From NCBI GenBank assembly GCA_012514535.1, contig JAAZAA010000192.1, positions 1 to 32,221 of the forward strand: a stretch of 32,221 bases of DNA. The letters run 5' to 3'. The notes under the pieces are model-generated. The model was given only the letters and a program-made list of their open reading frames with translations. It did not search any database and was not told where the DNA came from. The stretch is from Myxococcales bacterium. GTDB taxonomy: Bacteria > Myxococcota_A > Polyangia > Polyangiales > Polyangiaceae. Shown here piece by piece: positions 20,257 to 30,530 of this stretch; within the stretch, counting starts at the first letter, position 1, and every line of letters starts with the position of its first letter. A program made the position numbers and the translations under genes.

Positions 20257-20907
<651 letters not shown>

Positions 20908-22414: not shown

Positions 22415-24427
22415 GTGGGTGTGTCCCCCCTCCTCGTCGTCGATGACGACTCCGTCAGCCGCAGCGTCCTCGAGAGGACGCTGCGCGGCGCGGGACTCGA
22501 CTGCCATGTCGTCGATGGAGGCGCCGCCGCGCTCGCCTGGCTCGAGCGCAACACGCCGGGGCTGGTGCTCCTCGATCTCGTGATGCCGCCGCCGGACGGT
22601 TACGCCGTCCTCCGGTACATCCGCGCTCACCCGCGCCACGAGCAGGTCCCGGTCGTCGTCCTCACCGGGCTCGACTCGGAGGAGGAGATCGGGCGCATCT
22701 TCGACCTCGGCGCGGACGACTACGTCCACAAACCCTTTCGGGCCGTCGAGCTCATCGCGCGCGTGCGCATGCAGATGCGCCTGCGCAGCTACGTGGAGCG
22801 CCTCGATCGTCGCGAGCAGGATCGGAAGACGGTGCTGGAGCTCACCCAGACCCTCGCCTCCAGCCTCGACATGCACGACATCCTGTTCACCGTGGTGCAG
22901 CGGATGGCCGAGATCGTGCACGTGGATCGCTGCAGCATCGTGCTCGTGGGAGACAATCCCGCGACGGGCTTCGTCGTGGCCACCAGCGACGACGAGCAGG
23001 TCCGCGATCTGCCCATCGAGCTGCACAAATACCCCGAGATCCGCGAGGTGTTGGCCACCCGCCAGGCCCTCGTGATCCGCGACGTCGCGCACCACCCGCT
23101 GCTGGAGGCCGTCCGGCAGAACGAGCCTGGCCTCGATTTCACGTCCATGGGGTTGGTGCCGATCCTGCCCGAAGACGGAGCCCTCGGGGTGCTCTGCCTG
23201 CGCGGCCGTCACGCGGTCGAGTTCACCGAGTACGAGCTGTCCCTCGCGCACACCATCGCCAACGCGACGGGCATCGCCCTGCGCAACGCGCGCATCCTCC
23301 AGGACCTCAAGGACGAGACGAAGCAGGTGGCCGTGGCGCGGGTGGAGGCGGAGCGCCGAGTGCAGCTGTTCCAGCGCTACGCGGACTTCTTCGAGAGCGC
23401 CGCCGACGGGATGGTGGTCATCGATCGCAGCGGGCGGGTCCTGTTCGCGAACCCCCGGGCCCGAGAAATCACCGGACACAGCGAGACGCAGCTCATGGAG
23501 CTGTCCCTGACGGATCTGGTGACGCCGCGGCACCGCGGGCGCGCCGAGCGGCTGCTGCGCGGCTTCGCCGACGGCCTGTACCCGCGGGGAGTGGACGTGG
23601 AGCTGGCCACGCGGGACGGCGGCTTCCTCATCGTCAACGTGAGCTTCAGCAGCGTGCTGCACGAGGACGACGCGGTCCTGTTCACGTTTCGCGACGTCAC
23701 CAAGGAGCGCAACACCGCCGTCGAGCTGGAGCAGACCAAGGAGTTCTTGGAGCGCGTCATCGAGAGCTCCGTCGACGGCATCGTGTCCGCGGATCTGAAG
23801 GGACGCATCCTGCTCTTCAACCGCGCCGCCTCGCGCATCTTCGGCTACGAGCCGAGCGAGGTCCTCGGCACCATGAACGTCGAGCGCCTCTATCCGCCCG
23901 GCGTCGCGCGGGAGGTCATGCGGCGCATCCGCGATCCGCGCTTCACGGGTCCCGGCGTGCTCGAGGACTACCGGGTCGACATGCTCGCTCGCGGCGGAGA
24001 GCGCATCCAGGTCACCCTGTCGGCGTCCCTCGTGATGGACGGCAACCAGGCGGTCGGTAGCGTCGGCATCTTCACCGACATCCGCGAGCGGCTCGCCATG
24101 GAGGCCCGCCTCCACCAGGCCCAGGACGAGCTCCGCTCCCGGGAACGCCAGGCGCTGGTGGCGGAGCTCGCCGGCGCCGCCGCCCACGAGCTCAACCAGC
24201 CCCTCACCAGCGTCATCGGCTACGCGGAGCTGCTCCGCCGCCGGCTCGAGGACCCTGCGACGCGCCGCGGGCTCGACGTGATCATCGCGGAGAGCGAGCG
24301 CATGGCGGAGATCGTCCGCAAGGTGGGCCGCATCACCCACTACGAGACGAAGAGCTACGTCGGCAGCACCAAGATCGTCGATCTGGAGAGATCGAGCGCC
24401 CCCGAAGACCCGAAGGATCATCCGTGA
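22415..24427 (+). CDS. REC-GAF-PAS-PAS-HisKA signalling protein lacking an ATPase domain
   Basis: A 670-aa cytoplasmic protein read from GTG 22415. An N-terminal receiver domain (about 4-120) has the acidic pair DDD (10-12), phosphoacceptor Asp54 in LLDLVMPP, Thr84 and Lys106 in VHKPF. A GAF domain (about 140-295), two PAS domains (about 320-433 and 445-563) and a HisKA helix pair (about 573-640) follow, with phosphoacceptor His591 in AAAHELNQPLTSVIGY. After the second helix (MAEIVRKVGRITHY) the protein ends in about 27 residues containing KSYVGSTKIVDL. There is no N box, G1, F or G2 box, so it cannot autophosphorylate by itself. Its TGA overlaps the GTG of the next kinase by four bases. The start is uncertain: the upstream ATG at 22304 is also in frame, but GTG 22415 puts the receiver at the usual distance. 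Confidence 0.9.
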   Translation: MGVSPLLVVDDDSVSRSVLERTLRGAGLDCHVVDGGAAALAWLERNTPGLVLLDLVMPPPDGYAVLRYIRAHPRHEQVPVVVLTGLDSEEEIGRIFDLGADDYVHKPFRAVELIARVRMQMRLRSYVERLDRREQDRKTVLELTQTLASSLDMHDILFTVVQRMAEIVHVDRCSIVLVGDNPATGFVVATSDDEQVRDLPIELHKYPEIREVLATRQALVIRDVAHHPLLEAVRQNEPGLDFTSMGLVPILPEDGALGVLCLRGRHAVEFTEYELSLAHTIANATGIALRNARILQDLKDETKQVAVARVEAERRVQLFQRYADFFESAADGMVVIDRSGRVLFANPRAREITGHSETQLMELSLTDLVTPRHRGRAERLLRGFADGLYPRGVDVELATRDGGFLIVNVSFSSVLHEDDAVLFTFRDVTKERNTAVELEQTKEFLERVIESSVDGIVSADLKGRILLFNRAASRIFGYEPSEVLGTMNVERLYPPGVAREVMRRIRDPRFTGPGVLEDYRVDMLARGGERIQVTLSASLVMDGNQAVGSVGIFTDIRERLAMEARLHQAQDELRSRERQALVAELAGAAAHELNQPLTSVIGYAELLRRRLEDPATRRGLDVIIAESERMAEIVRKVGRITHYETKSYVGSTKIVDLERSSAPEDPKDHP

Positions 24428-25761
24428 CCATTCGCTCCTCCTCCCGACCGCCCCGCCCTCGGGCGCCCTTCGCCCACGGCGGCGCCGAGAGGTCCGCCGC
24501 TACGGAGGAGCCCTTCGCGTCACCGCCCAACTCCGGGACGATCCGCCGGGCCACGTTGCCCGAGTCCATCCTGCTCATGACCCTCGACGCGCCCCTGGAG
24601 CAAGGGCCCCGGGTCACGGCGCGATTCCTGGTGCGCGAGCTGAGCTCGCTCCTGCCGGGGCTCGCGGTCGGCCTCTGCCTGCGCACCTCCAGCCCGAGCG
24701 GGCACGCCGTCAGCCTCCCGTGGATCGAAGCGGACTACCCCGTCAGCGTCGCGGAGCCCGGAGCAGAGGCCCCCTTGCGGCTGTTCTCCTCTCTGGAGCC
24801 GGAGCTCGTGCTCGAAATCGACGGAGCGGGCTCCACGCTGCACCTCGCCCGCCGCGCCGTGCCCTCCACCGCGTCACCCACGGTGCGCGACGGATCACGT
24901 CCCGGCGCAGGGCCGCACCTCGACGCCTCCCTGCTCGGGTTCTCGACGGAGGAGCAGGAGGAGGCGTTCCTGCACCTGGCCACCCGCGCCATCCAGCGCT
25001 GCCTCGAGCTCAGCCAGCGGGAGAGCCGCCGCATGGAGGAGCAGGAGCGGCTGCGCGCGCGCGTGGCGCATTCGGACAAACTGGCGACGCTCGGGCAAAT
25101 CACCGCGGGGATCCTCCACGAGCTCAGCAACCCCCTCACCTCGATCGTCGCCTACACCGATCAGCTGCGCAGGCGCGTCCGGAGCCGCCGCGAAGCGGGC
25201 GAAGCCGCGGAGGACGAGCTGATGAAGCTCGACCGCATCGCGGAGTCCGCCGAGCGCATCGCCCGATTCTCGGAGGATCTGCTGAGCCACGCGCGGCCCA
25301 GCGGAGAGCCGATGGCGCGCGTCTCGCTCCTCGAGGTCGTGGAGAAGTCCATCACCTTCTGCGAACACGAGCTGGCGCGCCACGGGGTGCTCCTGGAGCG
25401 TGCCGTCGGAGACGCGACCCCGTTCGTGCGGGGCAGCTCCAGTCAGCTCGTGCAGGTCTTCGTCAACCTGATCACCAACGCGATCCACGCCGCGAGCGAG
25501 GGCGGGCGCGAGATCGTCGTGCACGCGCACAGTGAAGAAGGCTTCGGCGTGGTGCGCGTTTCGGACAATGGCCCGGGCGTGGCCCATGAGCACCTCGACC
25601 GGATCTTCGACCCGTTCTTCACCACGAAGCCCGAGGGTCAGGGCACCGGGCTCGGCCTGGCGATCGTCCAGGAGCTCGTGGTGCGCCACGGGGGCCTGAT
25701 CGAGGTCGAGAGCTCCCTCGGACGCGGTACCTCCTTCGTCGTGCGGCTGCCCATCGCCTGA
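24424..25761 (+). CDS. Sensor histidine kinase, HisKA-HATPase
   Basis: Complete cytoplasmic histidine kinase of 445 aa. The first about 190 residues hold an unassigned region, possibly a degenerate sensor domain (about 47-145). A charged helix (195-217) leads into HisKA with phosphoacceptor His232 in AGILHELSNPLTSIVAY. The ATPase domain has the N box QVFVNLITNAIHAA (344-357), G1 DNGPGV (381-386), F box FDPFFTTKP (395-403) and G2 GQGTGLGLAIV (405-415). No membrane helix is present. GTG 24424 overlaps the stop of the preceding REC/HisKA protein (GTGA), so the two should be made in step. The natural reading is that this kinase supplies the ATPase activity its neighbour lacks, either in a heterodimer or by phosphorylating its receiver; this is inference. 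Confidence 0.94.
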   Translation: MTIRSSSRPPRPRAPFAHGGAERSAATEEPFASPPNSGTIRRATLPESILLMTLDAPLEQGPRVTARFLVRELSSLLPGLAVGLCLRTSSPSGHAVSLPWIEADYPVSVAEPGAEAPLRLFSSLEPELVLEIDGAGSTLHLARRAVPSTASPTVRDGSRPGAGPHLDASLLGFSTEEQEEAFLHLATRAIQRCLELSQRESRRMEEQERLRARVAHSDKLATLGQITAGILHELSNPLTSIVAYTDQLRRRVRSRREAGEAAEDELMKLDRIAESAERIARFSEDLLSHARPSGEPMARVSLLEVVEKSITFCEHELARHGVLLERAVGDATPFVRGSSSQLVQVFVNLITNAIHAASEGGREIVVHAHSEEGFGVVRVSDNGPGVAHEHLDRIFDPFFTTKPEGQGTGLGLAIVQELVVRHGGLIEVESSLGRGTSFVVRLPIA

Positions 25762-25814: not shown

Positions 25815-27044
25815 TCAGGGGAGGCCGAAGGGCATCGCCGGCACCTGCGGGCGCGCTTCGGGGAGTTCGACCAACGTCACCTGCAGATCCCGCTCCTTTT
25901 GGCCGCGGGCGACGCGCATCGTCACGGTGCGACCGACGCCCGCGAGGCTCGCCTGCCATCGCAACCGCTCGGGGCTGACCACTTCGTTGCCGTCGAAGGC
26001 GACGATGACGTCGTCGGGCTTGAGGCCTGCCCGCGCCGCCGGCCCCCCGGGCACCACGTGGCGCACGAGGGCTCCGCCCTGGCGGTTCAGGCCGAGCCGC
26101 TCGACGTCCTCGGGGCGCACCGACGACACGTGCACCCCGATCGCGCTGCGCTCGACGCGCCCCTTGGTGCGCAGCTGCGGCAGCAGCTCCTTGATCATGT
26201 TGATGGGGATCGCGAAGCCGATGCTGTTGGCTTGCTGGCGGATCGCGGTGTTCATCCCCACGACGTGACCCGTCAAATCGATGAGCGGGCCGCCCGAGTT
26301 GCCCGGGTTGATGCTCGCGTCCGTCTGGATGAAGTTGTAGTAGCCCGACGCGTCACCGGGCAGCTGCACGTCGTCGCGGGTTCGTCCCTTGGCCGAGACG
26401 ATGCCGGCCGACACCGTGTGCGCCAGCCCGAAGGGGTTGCCGATGGCGATCACCCAATCTCCGACGCGGGTCGCGTCGGAGTCGCCGAGGGGCACGAAGG
26501 GCAAGCCCCGCTCCTTCACGCGCAGCACCGCCACGTCCGTCGGGGGATCTTTGCCCACGATCTCCGCCCGGAGCTCGCGTCCGTTCGGGAACGCCACGTG
26601 GATGTCCCGCGCGCCGTCGATGACGTGGTTGTTCGTCAGGATGAAGCCGTCCGAATCAAAGACGAAGCCGGTACCCTGCCCTTCACCGACGATGCGCCGC
26701 GCCCGCGCCTGGATCGTCCGCACGAAGACCACCGCCGGATCCGCGCGCTCGGCGAGATCGGCGAAGCTCTGCGGCCGATCGCCGAGGGAAGGAGCTGGGA
26801 GAACCGGGGGAGCGGGGGGCGGAGGCGCGGGCTGATCCAGAACTCCCGGTTCGGGTGGCTGGTTTTGATTCCCCTCCGGACGCTCTTCGGAGTCGAGGGC
26901 CAGCCGATCACAAGCGGCGACGAAGAGCATCAGCAACGCCAGCGCGCTCGACGCCCAGCAGGGACGGGCCCAGTAAAAAGGAGCCCAGCGCGGCGTCGCC
27001 GACGAGCGCGCGACGCCGGACGTCGGAGGCGCGACGGAGCTCAC
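25815..27044 (-). CDS. HtrA/DegP-type serine protease with PDZ domain, predicted lipoprotein
   Basis: Envelope quality-control protease of 409 aa. From GTG 27044 there is a hydrophobic signal ending in the lipobox LFVAAC (Cys45), with Asp at +2, then a Pro-rich linker (about 57-86). The trypsin-like domain has His140 (TNNHVID), Asp170 (TDVAVLRV) and Ser250 (NPGNSGGPL), an intact triad. A single PDZ domain covers about 300-395 (GALVRHVVPGGPAARAGLKPDDVI). One PDZ makes it DegS-like in layout, while the length fits HtrA. The frame is open upstream, but that part overlaps the DUF1844 gene. It ends the five-gene operon, 16 bp after the DUF1844 stop. Lipid anchoring is inferred from the lipobox; a plain membrane anchor is the alternative. 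Confidence 0.93.
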   Translation of the reverse strand: MSSVAPPTSGVARSSATPRWAPFYWARPCWASSALALLMLFVAACDRLALDSEERPEGNQNQPPEPGVLDQPAPPPPAPPVLPAPSLGDRPQSFADLAERADPAVVFVRTIQARARRIVGEGQGTGFVFDSDGFILTNNHVIDGARDIHVAFPNGRELRAEIVGKDPPTDVAVLRVKERGLPFVPLGDSDATRVGDWVIAIGNPFGLAHTVSAGIVSAKGRTRDDVQLPGDASGYYNFIQTDASINPGNSGGPLIDLTGHVVGMNTAIRQQANSIGFAIPINMIKELLPQLRTKGRVERSAIGVHVSSVRPEDVERLGLNRQGGALVRHVVPGGPAARAGLKPDDVIVAFDGNEVVSPERLRWQASLAGVGRTVTMRVARGQKERDLQVTLVELPEARPQVPAMPFGLP

Positions 27045-27060
27045 CGCGAGCCGGGCGCCC

Positions 27061-27420
27061 TCACTTCGACTTCGAGGCCTTGGAGGTCTCCACGTAACCG
27101 AGCCGGAGCTCGTACAGGATTTGCTCGATGATGCGCTCCTCCTCACCGGTGAGGTTCCCTTTCGTCTTCTCCTGGAGGAGAGCCACCAGGTCGATCGTTT
27201 GTCGCGCCAGGGGCAGGTTCACCTCGGTCTGCCCGGTGACGGGATCGGGAGCGAGCCCGAGGTGCACCAGCGCGGAGTGATTCAGGGACAGCACGAAGGT
27301 GGCGAAGTCCACCGCCGGGAGCTCCTGCCCTCCCTCCGCGGCGGCGTCCTCGTTCCGCGCGGCCTCGAACGCGGCGGCGCTCTCCGCCGCGGGCTCCTTC
27401 CCCTCCCCCTCGGTGGTCAC
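27061..27420 (-). CDS. DUF1844 family protein
   Basis: A 119-aa protein with an acidic Ala/Glu-rich N-terminus (1-35) and the conserved DUF1844 core: VDFATFVLSLNHSALVHLG (37-55), NLPLARQTIDLVALLQEKTKGNLT (about 68-91) and a final helix EERIIEQILYELRLGYVE. Most of the core is amphipathic helix; no signal peptide or clear membrane helix is seen. The function of the family is unknown. It starts at GTG 27420, which overlaps the stop of the preceding 75-aa gene by four bases (GTGA), so translation is probably coupled. The position between a SlyD-type chaperone and an HtrA protease suggests a link to protein quality control, by context only. Confidence 0.88.
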   Translation of the reverse strand: MTTEGEGKEPAAESAAAFEAARNEDAAAEGGQELPAVDFATFVLSLNHSALVHLGLAPDPVTGQTEVNLPLARQTIDLVALLQEKTKGNLTGEEERIIEQILYELRLGYVETSKASKSK

Positions 27421-29825: not shown

Positions 29826-30530
29826 TCAGGCCCGCGGCGCCACGAGCTCGAACCAGTTGCCCGCGTTCGAGCTCCCTGCCCGCACCTGGGCGCCCGCCGC
29901 GTCCGCGCAAATCCGCGCGCAGAACAAGCCCAGCCCCGCGCTGTAGCGCCCCCCGCCGCGACGCTTCGCCCGGAGCTGCCCCGCCGCCGTGAACGCCCCC
30001 TCGAGCATGTCCGGTTCGAGGGGAGTCCCCGTGTCCGACACGATCACGACCACGTGCTCCGGTTGCTCGCGCGCTTCGAGCGTCACCTGGCTCCCCTGGG
30101 GAGCGTGCTGGATCGAGTTCTGTAGCAGCGCCCGCATCGCCCTCGTGAACATCTCGCGACCGACGATCACGTCGACGGCCCGGCTCGTGCACTCGCCCAC
30201 GCCGATCTCGACGCCGTGGCTCCTGGCGTGGGCTCGGCTGGCCTCCACCGCCTCCCCGAGCAGCACGGGGAGCGGAGCCGGGCGCCGCTCCTCCGTCGCC
30301 CGCCCCTGCAGGAAGCGCCCCAGCACCTCGACGCTGTCGACGATGCGCGCGAGCCCATCGCAGGAGAGCTTCAGATCGTCGAGGGACTCCCGCGCGGGCG
30401 CCGAACGGAGCTCGAGCTCCGCTTCGAGGAAGCTCACGTTGCTGTCCACGGCGGAGAGCGGGTTCCGCAGGTCGTGCGCGAGCAGTCGCAGCAGCTCTCC
30501 CACCTCCGCCGAAGCCAGACCGTCCGCCAC
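29826..30530 (-). CDS. Minimal histidine kinase (HisKA-HATPase only)
   Basis: A 234-aa cytoplasmic kinase with no sensor domain. HisKA starts almost at once: LLRLLAHDLRNPLSAVDSNVSFL with His19. The ATPase domain has an N box MRALLQNSIQHAP (about 131-143), G1 VSDTGTPL, and a G2-like GRYSAGLGLFCARICA. The G1 and G2 boxes are less canonical than in the kinase at 24424, but Asp, Asn and the Gly-Leu-Gly core are kept. GTG 30530 is preceded by AGGGGA. It starts 36 bp after the hydrolase gene, so it is probably the last gene of a three-gene run (ribbon-helix-helix, hydrolase, kinase). Its partner regulator is not in view. Confidence 0.88.
   Translation of the reverse strand: MADGLASAEVGELLRLLAHDLRNPLSAVDSNVSFLEAELELRSAPARESLDDLKLSCDGLARIVDSVEVLGRFLQGRATEERRPAPLPVLLGEAVEASRAHARSHGVEIGVGECTSRAVDVIVGREMFTRAMRALLQNSIQHAPQGSQVTLEAREQPEHVVVIVSDTGTPLEPDMLEGAFTAAGQLRAKRRGGGRYSAGLGLFCARICADAAGAQVRAGSSNAGNWFELVAPRA

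Follow-up and report, generated by a model that had tools for sequence, protein, structure and literature searches.

The DNA described here (the window, i.e., the whole analysed stretch of 32,221 nucleotides, contig JAAZAA010000192.1 of the Myxococcales bacterium assembly GCA_012514535.1) carries on its forward strand two overlapping genes, named here P1 and P2. P1 codes for a sensory protein ending in a histidine phosphoacceptor domain (HisKA) and devoid of an ATPase domain (HATPase_c), and P2 for a complete histidine kinase, with a HisKA containing its histidine and a HATPase_c containing the N, G1, and G2 boxes. An earlier note, made from the letters alone, had read P1 as a receiver, a GAF domain, two PAS domains, and a HisKA with an intact His591, coupled by a GTGA overlap to a complete kinase. 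Pfam and NCBIfam searches bear out this architecture, and His591 and the receiver Asp54 lie at the residues named (Table 1). No HATPase_c match is found in P1 by Pfam at an E-value of 1. P1 does stop soon after His591, although at a distance of 79 residues, which is 33 residues past the Pfam HisKA match, and not of the 50–60 residues estimated in the note. Its receiver has, besides Asp54, the acidic pair and Lys106. The GTG of the overlap is the sole start codon between positions −60 and +120 relative to the P1 stop. The closest named relatives of P1 share 61–68% identity with it and come from organisms labelled Polyangiaceae, Myxococcales or Polyangia bacterium.

Table 1. Features of the P1–P2 locus (positions in the window)
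Feature	Position	Strand	Basis or remark
P1, receiver-GAF-PAS-PAS-HisKA protein without ATPase domain	22415..24427	+	670 aa, from GTG at 22415
P1 receiver domain, Asp54 codon 22574-22576	22433..22768	+	Pfam PF00072 (Response_reg), residues 7-118, 1.6e-25
P1 GAF domain	22868..23281	+	Pfam PF01590, residues 152-289, 1.3e-15
P1 first PAS domain	23375..23698	+	Pfam PF00989, residues 321-428
P1 second PAS domain	23732..24112	+	NCBIfam TIGR00229, residues 440-566
P1 HisKA domain, His591 codon 24185-24187, motif HELNQPL	24164..24325	+	Pfam PF00512, residues 584-637
P1 conserved C-terminal signature, residues 638-660, GRITHYETKSYVGSTKIVDLERS, just ahead of stop	24326..24394	+	mean pairwise identity 0.66 (79 paired P1)
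GTGA overlap, P1 stop (TGA 24425-24427) / P2 start (GTG 24424)	24424..24427	+	read from sequence
P2, complete histidine kinase	24424..25761	+	445 aa
P2 N-terminal folded domain, residues 45-142	24556..24849	+	structure model; no Pfam match; variable among relatives
P2 HisKA domain, His232 codon 25117-25119, motif HELSNPL	25090..25296	+	Pfam PF00512, 1.5e-8
P2 HATPase_c with N, G1, and G2 motifs	25438..25755	+	Pfam PF02518, residues 339-444, 2.2e-28

A HisKA without an ATPase domain is rare in the genome of origin, which comprises 5.77 Mb in 442 contigs and contains 56 HisKA (PF00512) and 68 HATPase_c stretches. A HATPase_c on the same strand follows within 400 bases in 54 of the 56 cases, the exceptions being P1 and a stretch on contig 118. 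The latter, at positions 35223–35411, lies in an open frame of 285 aa.

The P1 protein used as a query gives a match at 1e-60 in 53 out of 59 genomes of relatives (the own genome included), and P2 at 1e-45 in 46 of them, with one match per genome in each case. According to their coordinates, the P2 matches lie at the P1 gene in 44 of the 46 genomes, the other two being G047 and G052, in which the genes are fused as described below. In the relatives of P1 the HisKA domain is followed by a segment of the form RKIGKITRYETKxYVGxxKILDLDKAS (the signature), then by a variable tail and the stop. An alignment of the HisKA and the segment following it, comprising 43 sequences, was used for wider searches. 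In a sample of the window's phylum it has a match in 73 of 282 genomes (threshold 1e-22); in the class to which a Cystobacterineae genome belongs, it matches 83 of 97 genomes (threshold 1e-10), and 73 of these score 3e-28 or better, with one such match each, after which there is a gap down to ordinary kinases at ca. 1e-13. The resulting set of 113 distinct P1 proteins consists of 53 from the full-length search, 40 from the phylum loci, and 20 from the Cystobacterineae-class loci. Sixty of them were picked by the HisKA-plus-signature profile, and for these the selection itself accounts for part of the conservation seen there; nevertheless, the signature is not solely a product of its own selection, since all 53 proteins found with the full-length P1 carry it.

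His591 is kept in all 113 P1 proteins. HATPase_c is found by Pfam in only three, each of them a fusion to a kinase, while in the 110 unfused ones the signature is followed by no more than 77 residues, which leaves no room for a HATPase domain of ca. 110 residues. L114, an unfused protein, is truncated by its contig end, and the other 109 stop within those 77 residues. The HisKA-only ending is thus a conserved property, and an ATPase domain in the same frame in relatives, named in the earlier note as the sign of a sequencing error, is excluded. This refutes an artefact in which a frameshift or a false stop had deprived an ordinary kinase of its ATPase domain. Nothing but the reliance on a single assembly speaks for such an error, and its probability is negligible also because P2 has a HisKA of its own and a joined frame would hold two. 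The P1–P2 arrangement looks like an old, stable design rather than a sequencing error.

In 79 of the 113 cases a gene for a complete kinase lies immediately downstream of P1; in three the kinase is fused to P1, and in 24 none is present within 2.6 kb. The remaining seven could not be judged, as their sequence ends too early, and were left out of the count. Hence 82 of the 106 testable P1 proteins have an adjacent or fused kinase, and the conservation of the gene pair in other myxobacteria, proposed in the note as a check, is borne out. Judged roughly by how densely HATPase genes occur in the own genome, one would be expected by chance on the same strand within 2.6 kb in ca. 1.5% of cases. Among the 79 adjacent pairs, a start codon for P2 is available in the same 4-base overlap in 38, at −1 in two, elsewhere between −60 and +30 in 37, and further off in two.

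The fusions take several forms. In L119 (genome G006) a single frame of 661 residues comprises the PAS-PAS-HisKA part of P1 with the signature, followed by a second HisKA and a HATPase. In L184 and L185, which represent one genus of another family, frames of ca. 1145 residues contain the P1 signature, further sequence, and then a HisKA with a HATPase. The fusions retaining both HisKA domains also retain both histidines. The third form, found in one genus of a third family (G047 and G052; L294:2-2503 and L295:3116-5767), is a single frame of 834–884 residues joining the sensors of P1 to P2. Its first part corresponds to P1 residues 137 (approximately) to 552–569, covering GAF-PAS-PAS with 28–32% identity, and the following part corresponds to P2, with up to 56% identity over HisKA-HATPase. 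The occurrence of fusions in three families argues that P1 and P2 work together.

The distribution of sequence constraint, expressed as mean pairwise identity over the 79 adjacent P1–P2 pairs, is uneven. In neither protein is any other part conserved as well as the HisKA of P1 (0.62) and the signature (0.66); in the remainder of P1 the identity falls to 0.48 and 0.37 in the second and first PAS, 0.41 in GAF, and 0.29 in the receiver, the lowest value in P1. In P2 it amounts to 0.52 in HisKA, 0.49 in HATPase, and 0.24 in the N-terminal part (residues 45–200). Six P1 residues, His591, Asn594, Gln595, Pro596, Tyr648, and Ile654, are invariant in all 79 paired proteins, as are the histidine and both N-box asparagines of P2, in which Pfam recognises HATPase_c in 78 of 79 cases. 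Asp54 of the receiver is aligned with an aspartate in 51 of the 79 paired P1 proteins, and a receiver is recognised by Pfam in at least 61 of the 113 (43 of 68 and 18 of 45), a lower bound, because only the C-terminal 700 residues of the unfused proteins entered the search and four sequences start where their contig does. This pattern of conservation places the shared function less in the receiver than in the HisKA and the C-terminal end of P1.

The two proteins also differ in the residues around their histidines. In P1 the histidine is followed by glutamate at position +1 in 109 of 113 proteins, and the NQPL box, hence glutamine at +4, is present in all 113, while all 79 P2 proteins have glutamate or aspartate at +1 and asparagine, serine or threonine at +4. 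The same HELNQPL motif occurs in ordinary kinases such as FixL, so the glutamine at +4 alone is no proof of a loss of phosphatase activity. Work on four HisKA kinases, among them CrdS of Myxococcus xanthus, has found the glutamate at +1 necessary for the kinase and not for the phosphatase activity, and the threonine or asparagine at +4 for the phosphatase and not for the kinase activity; CrdS E372Q has no kinase activity and CrdS N375Q no measurable phosphatase activity (PMC3510030; this and the other papers are cited here from excerpts). By analogy, P1 is predicted to be a phosphate acceptor and donor and a poor phosphatase, with P2 keeping the full motif and both activities.

The HisKA-only protein with the signature is not confined to Myxococcota. 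At 1e-14 the alignment matches 68 of 247 genomes around a Desulfobacterales genome and 13 of 118 around a Nitrospirae genome; in other phyla, sampled singly, 13 of 18 genomes give no match at 1e-10. Fifty loci outside Myxococcota (L192–L241), the best-scoring matches, were read. The signature is reached in 45 of them, and in all 45 the frame contains no HATPase domain and ends 1 to 20 residues later; four of the remaining five are complete kinases and the fifth (L202) is interrupted by a stop. A kinase gene behind the HisKA-signature protein is found in one (L242, a HATPase on the same strand) of 17 testable loci, namely those of 20 wider loci (one from a "Deltaproteobacteria" record) that have at least 2.6 kb behind P1. 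The HisKA-only form with the signature is thus more widespread than the kinase pairing, which is seen frequently only in Myxococcota.

In the monomer model of P1, based on a shallow alignment of 13 sequences (pTM 0.30), the HisKA forms two helices and residues 647–670 have pLDDT below 50, a value that would agree with a docking peptide but, given the shallow alignment, permits no conclusion. The end signature might also be a vestige of the first strand of an ATPase domain. A Foldseek search retrieves PAS/GAF sensor proteins and kinases with the P1 model and ordinary kinases (ZraS, HK853) with that of P2.

P1 and P2 very probably form a functional pair of some kind, and the following mechanism is proposed. 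The two proteins would be subunits of one cytoplasmic signalling kinase, in which P1 would provide the sensory input (GAF, both PAS domains, and often the receiver) and a phosphoacceptor HisKA, with the only ATPase domain coming from P2. The HisKA and the C-terminal signature of P1 would dock to P2, whose ATPase domain would phosphorylate His591 and possibly also His232 of P2 itself, and the phosphate of His591 would then pass to a response regulator encoded elsewhere. The invariance of His591 and the location of the best conserved region in the HisKA and the tail fit His591 as the substrate, and the chances that P2 phosphorylates it appear evenly balanced. The earlier note had proposed the HisKA or the receiver of P1 as the target of P2; judged from residue conservation, the former would be the better candidate, while the case for the receiver is weakened by its patchy occurrence. 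The term "divided kinase" used there holds insofar as adjacency and fusions indicate that the genes act as a unit, and is loose insofar as P2 is complete and has its own histidine in all 79 pairs. More broadly, P1 could represent a widespread and undescribed class of kinase subunits, having a HisKA permanently without an ATPase domain, glutamine at His+4, and a conserved end peptide docking to its kinase. In myxobacteria this class would form a two-subunit sensor kinase encoded in one operon; it would have a single ATPase domain for two acceptor histidines, and the tasks of phosphorylating and dephosphorylating the output regulator would be split between the proteins. In this full form the idea is tentative and rather doubtful.

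Several observations weigh against the two-subunit kinase. The autophosphorylation of P2, whose own histidine is kept in all 79 pairs, needs no P1. In four of the 113 P1 proteins (L175, L177, and L181 of one family, and L287) the glutamate at His+1 is replaced by glutamine, lysine or arginine, a change expected to prevent phosphorylation if CrdS can be taken as a model, and yet the histidine and the partner kinase are retained. The fusion of G047 and G052 has neither the HisKA nor the signature of P1, which favours docking over a phosphate role and shows that the P1 HisKA is dispensable where sensors and P2 form one chain. Partners are also missing: there are the 24 testable Myxococcota P1 proteins without a kinase within 2.6 kb and the single kinase among the 17 loci from other groups, and eight genomes with P1 (G001, G002, G010, G023, G025, G029, G037, and G055), two of them (G001 and G002) from the same genus as the window, give no P2 match at 1e-45 in a search that scored at most 29 candidates per genome and included some fragmentary assemblies. 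P1 is thus probably able to work without P2.

The main alternative is that P1 is an allosteric sensory subunit, which would form a mixed four-helix bundle with the HisKA of P2 and switch P2 between kinase and phosphatase, His591 being unused for phosphate. Such a mode of action is known from the RetS–GacS system of Pseudomonas aeruginosa, in which RetS, a kinase-like protein incapable of autophosphorylation, acts on a complete kinase by kinase–kinase contact and inhibits, among other means, the autophosphorylation of GacS (PMC5992135). It agrees with the completeness of P2 and its invariant histidine, with the loss of the His+1 glutamate in four P1 proteins, and with the genus whose sensor–P2 fusion lacks the P1 HisKA. 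A pure docking helix, however, would need neither His591 in 113 of 113 proteins nor the adjacent glutamate in 109, and the fusions with both HisKA domains would not have to keep both histidines; on balance this alternative is unlikely. RetS differs from P1, which has no HATPase match, in that it keeps a degenerate HATPase domain and uses two receivers in control, and a gene overlap goes unmentioned in the excerpts (PMC5992135). P2 might instead autophosphorylate at His232 and pass the phosphate to Asp54 of the P1 receiver as an input switch, similarly to NmpU of M. xanthus, which phosphorylates the receiver of NmpS (PMC6211767). The window's receiver has Asp54, the acidic pair, and Lys106, but the low receiver identity, the incomplete conservation of Asp54, and the detection of the domain in at least 61 of 113 proteins make this improbable and reject the receiver as a conserved target in general. 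Its phosphorylation cannot be the shared function; it would at most be lineage-specific and may have been added in this lineage. Finally, P1 could function on its own as a phosphotransfer or phosphatase module that acts on a response regulator and draws on any of several kinases, with co-regulation as its only link to P2. The unpaired P1 proteins of Myxococcota and of the Desulfobacterales and Nitrospirae samples would suit such a module, and the P2CS database counts among its phosphotransfer proteins those with a HisKA but neither a HATPase nor a receiver (PMC2716373). The adjacent or fused kinase in 82 of 106 cases and the fusions in three families stand against it, and the glutamine replacing threonine or asparagine at His+4 speaks against phosphatase activity; such a role is decidedly improbable.

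The two-subunit kinase proposed here has partial counterparts among known systems. HisKA proteins without an ATPase domain constitute 3.66% of the HisKA proteins in SMART (1556 of 42,417; PMC3591291). In the CheA3/CheA4 system of Rhodobacter sphaeroides a phosphoacceptor protein without a catalytic domain is likewise combined with an ATPase-bearing partner; however, CheA4 lacks the phosphorylatable domain, while P2 is complete with its own histidine, and P1–P2 are of the HisKA and not of the CheA class (PMC3591291). P1 is, as in a split kinase, an acceptor without a catalytic domain, and the pair resembles one, yet departs from it because P2 retains a phosphoacceptor. In archaea, REC-(PAS/GAF)n-HisKA proteins such as AF_1472 have the same kinds of domains as P1, with the receiver first, the HisKA last, and no HATPase (PMC5847659); P1 differs, by comparison with their description, in being bacterial and in having a genetically linked kinase and the C-terminal signature. 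According to that archaeal census, no such protein had been studied and their partners were unknown (PMC5847659). The phosphotransfer proteins of P2CS resemble P1 in having a HisKA with its histidine and no HATPase, although the P2CS wording, which stipulates the absence of a receiver, does not fit the P1 of the window with its clear Response_reg match (PMC2716373).

Among myxobacterial systems, the NmpU–NmpS kinases of M. xanthus are similarly encoded at one locus, the second having an N-terminal receiver as input, but NmpS has its own HisKA and catalytic domain and the phosphate goes to its receiver, which in P1 is poorly conserved (PMC6211767, PMC11841059). A survey of Myxococcaceae describes HisKA phosphotransfer proteins or probable incomplete kinases as scarce, with numbers that vary widely (PMC7694542). 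The P1 family is unlike this description, since 73 of 97 genomes sampled from the Cystobacterineae class each have a single clear match, and P1, having a receiver-like domain, may have been counted elsewhere in that survey. The P1–P2 pair is unmentioned in the excerpts of the myxobacterial survey PMC4603909 and of the Nmp papers (PMC6211767, PMC11841059), and among the matches listed in the full-text open-licence literature no description of the pair or of the end signature was found. Thus, HisKA-only proteins and split kinases are already known, and the P1–P2 pair with its end signature is, among the matches listed, apparently new. P1 offers an ATPase-less HisKA protein with an obvious candidate partner in many Myxococcota genomes, natural fusions, and features predicting the activity of each subunit. 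As the pair is present also in the class of Cystobacterineae, the suborder including Myxococcaceae, a cultured carrier should exist for genetics and phosphotransfer assays.

The surroundings of the pair vary. No constant regulator gene was seen near P1–P2 in the loci looked at, without a systematic search for one. A larC-like gene lies directly upstream of P1 in seven of 98 loci scanned for motifs, the upstream flanks being short in many of the others. The seven (L160, L099, L115, L155, L161, L162, and L188) belong to two families, and in L160 (488–1861) the Ni_insertion domain PF01969 is confirmed and an AIR-carboxylase-like (LarB-like) gene precedes the larC-like one. In two Myxococcia loci (L290:8060-8857 and L292:3544-4362) a gene for a MotA/TolQ/ExbB proton channel is located downstream of P1–P2, and a similar gene was seen by eye in L279, a locus without P2. 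In the window itself, P2 is adjoined by a gene for a trypsin-PDZ protease (25818–27143, minus strand). The same strand also encodes a FHA-GAF-sigma54 activator at the window end (3–1553), a prepilin-like protein with an N-methylation motif (20260–20907), and a very small kinase-like protein of 234 aa (29829–30530), in which Pfam finds HisKA and HATPase_c only and no sensor domain.

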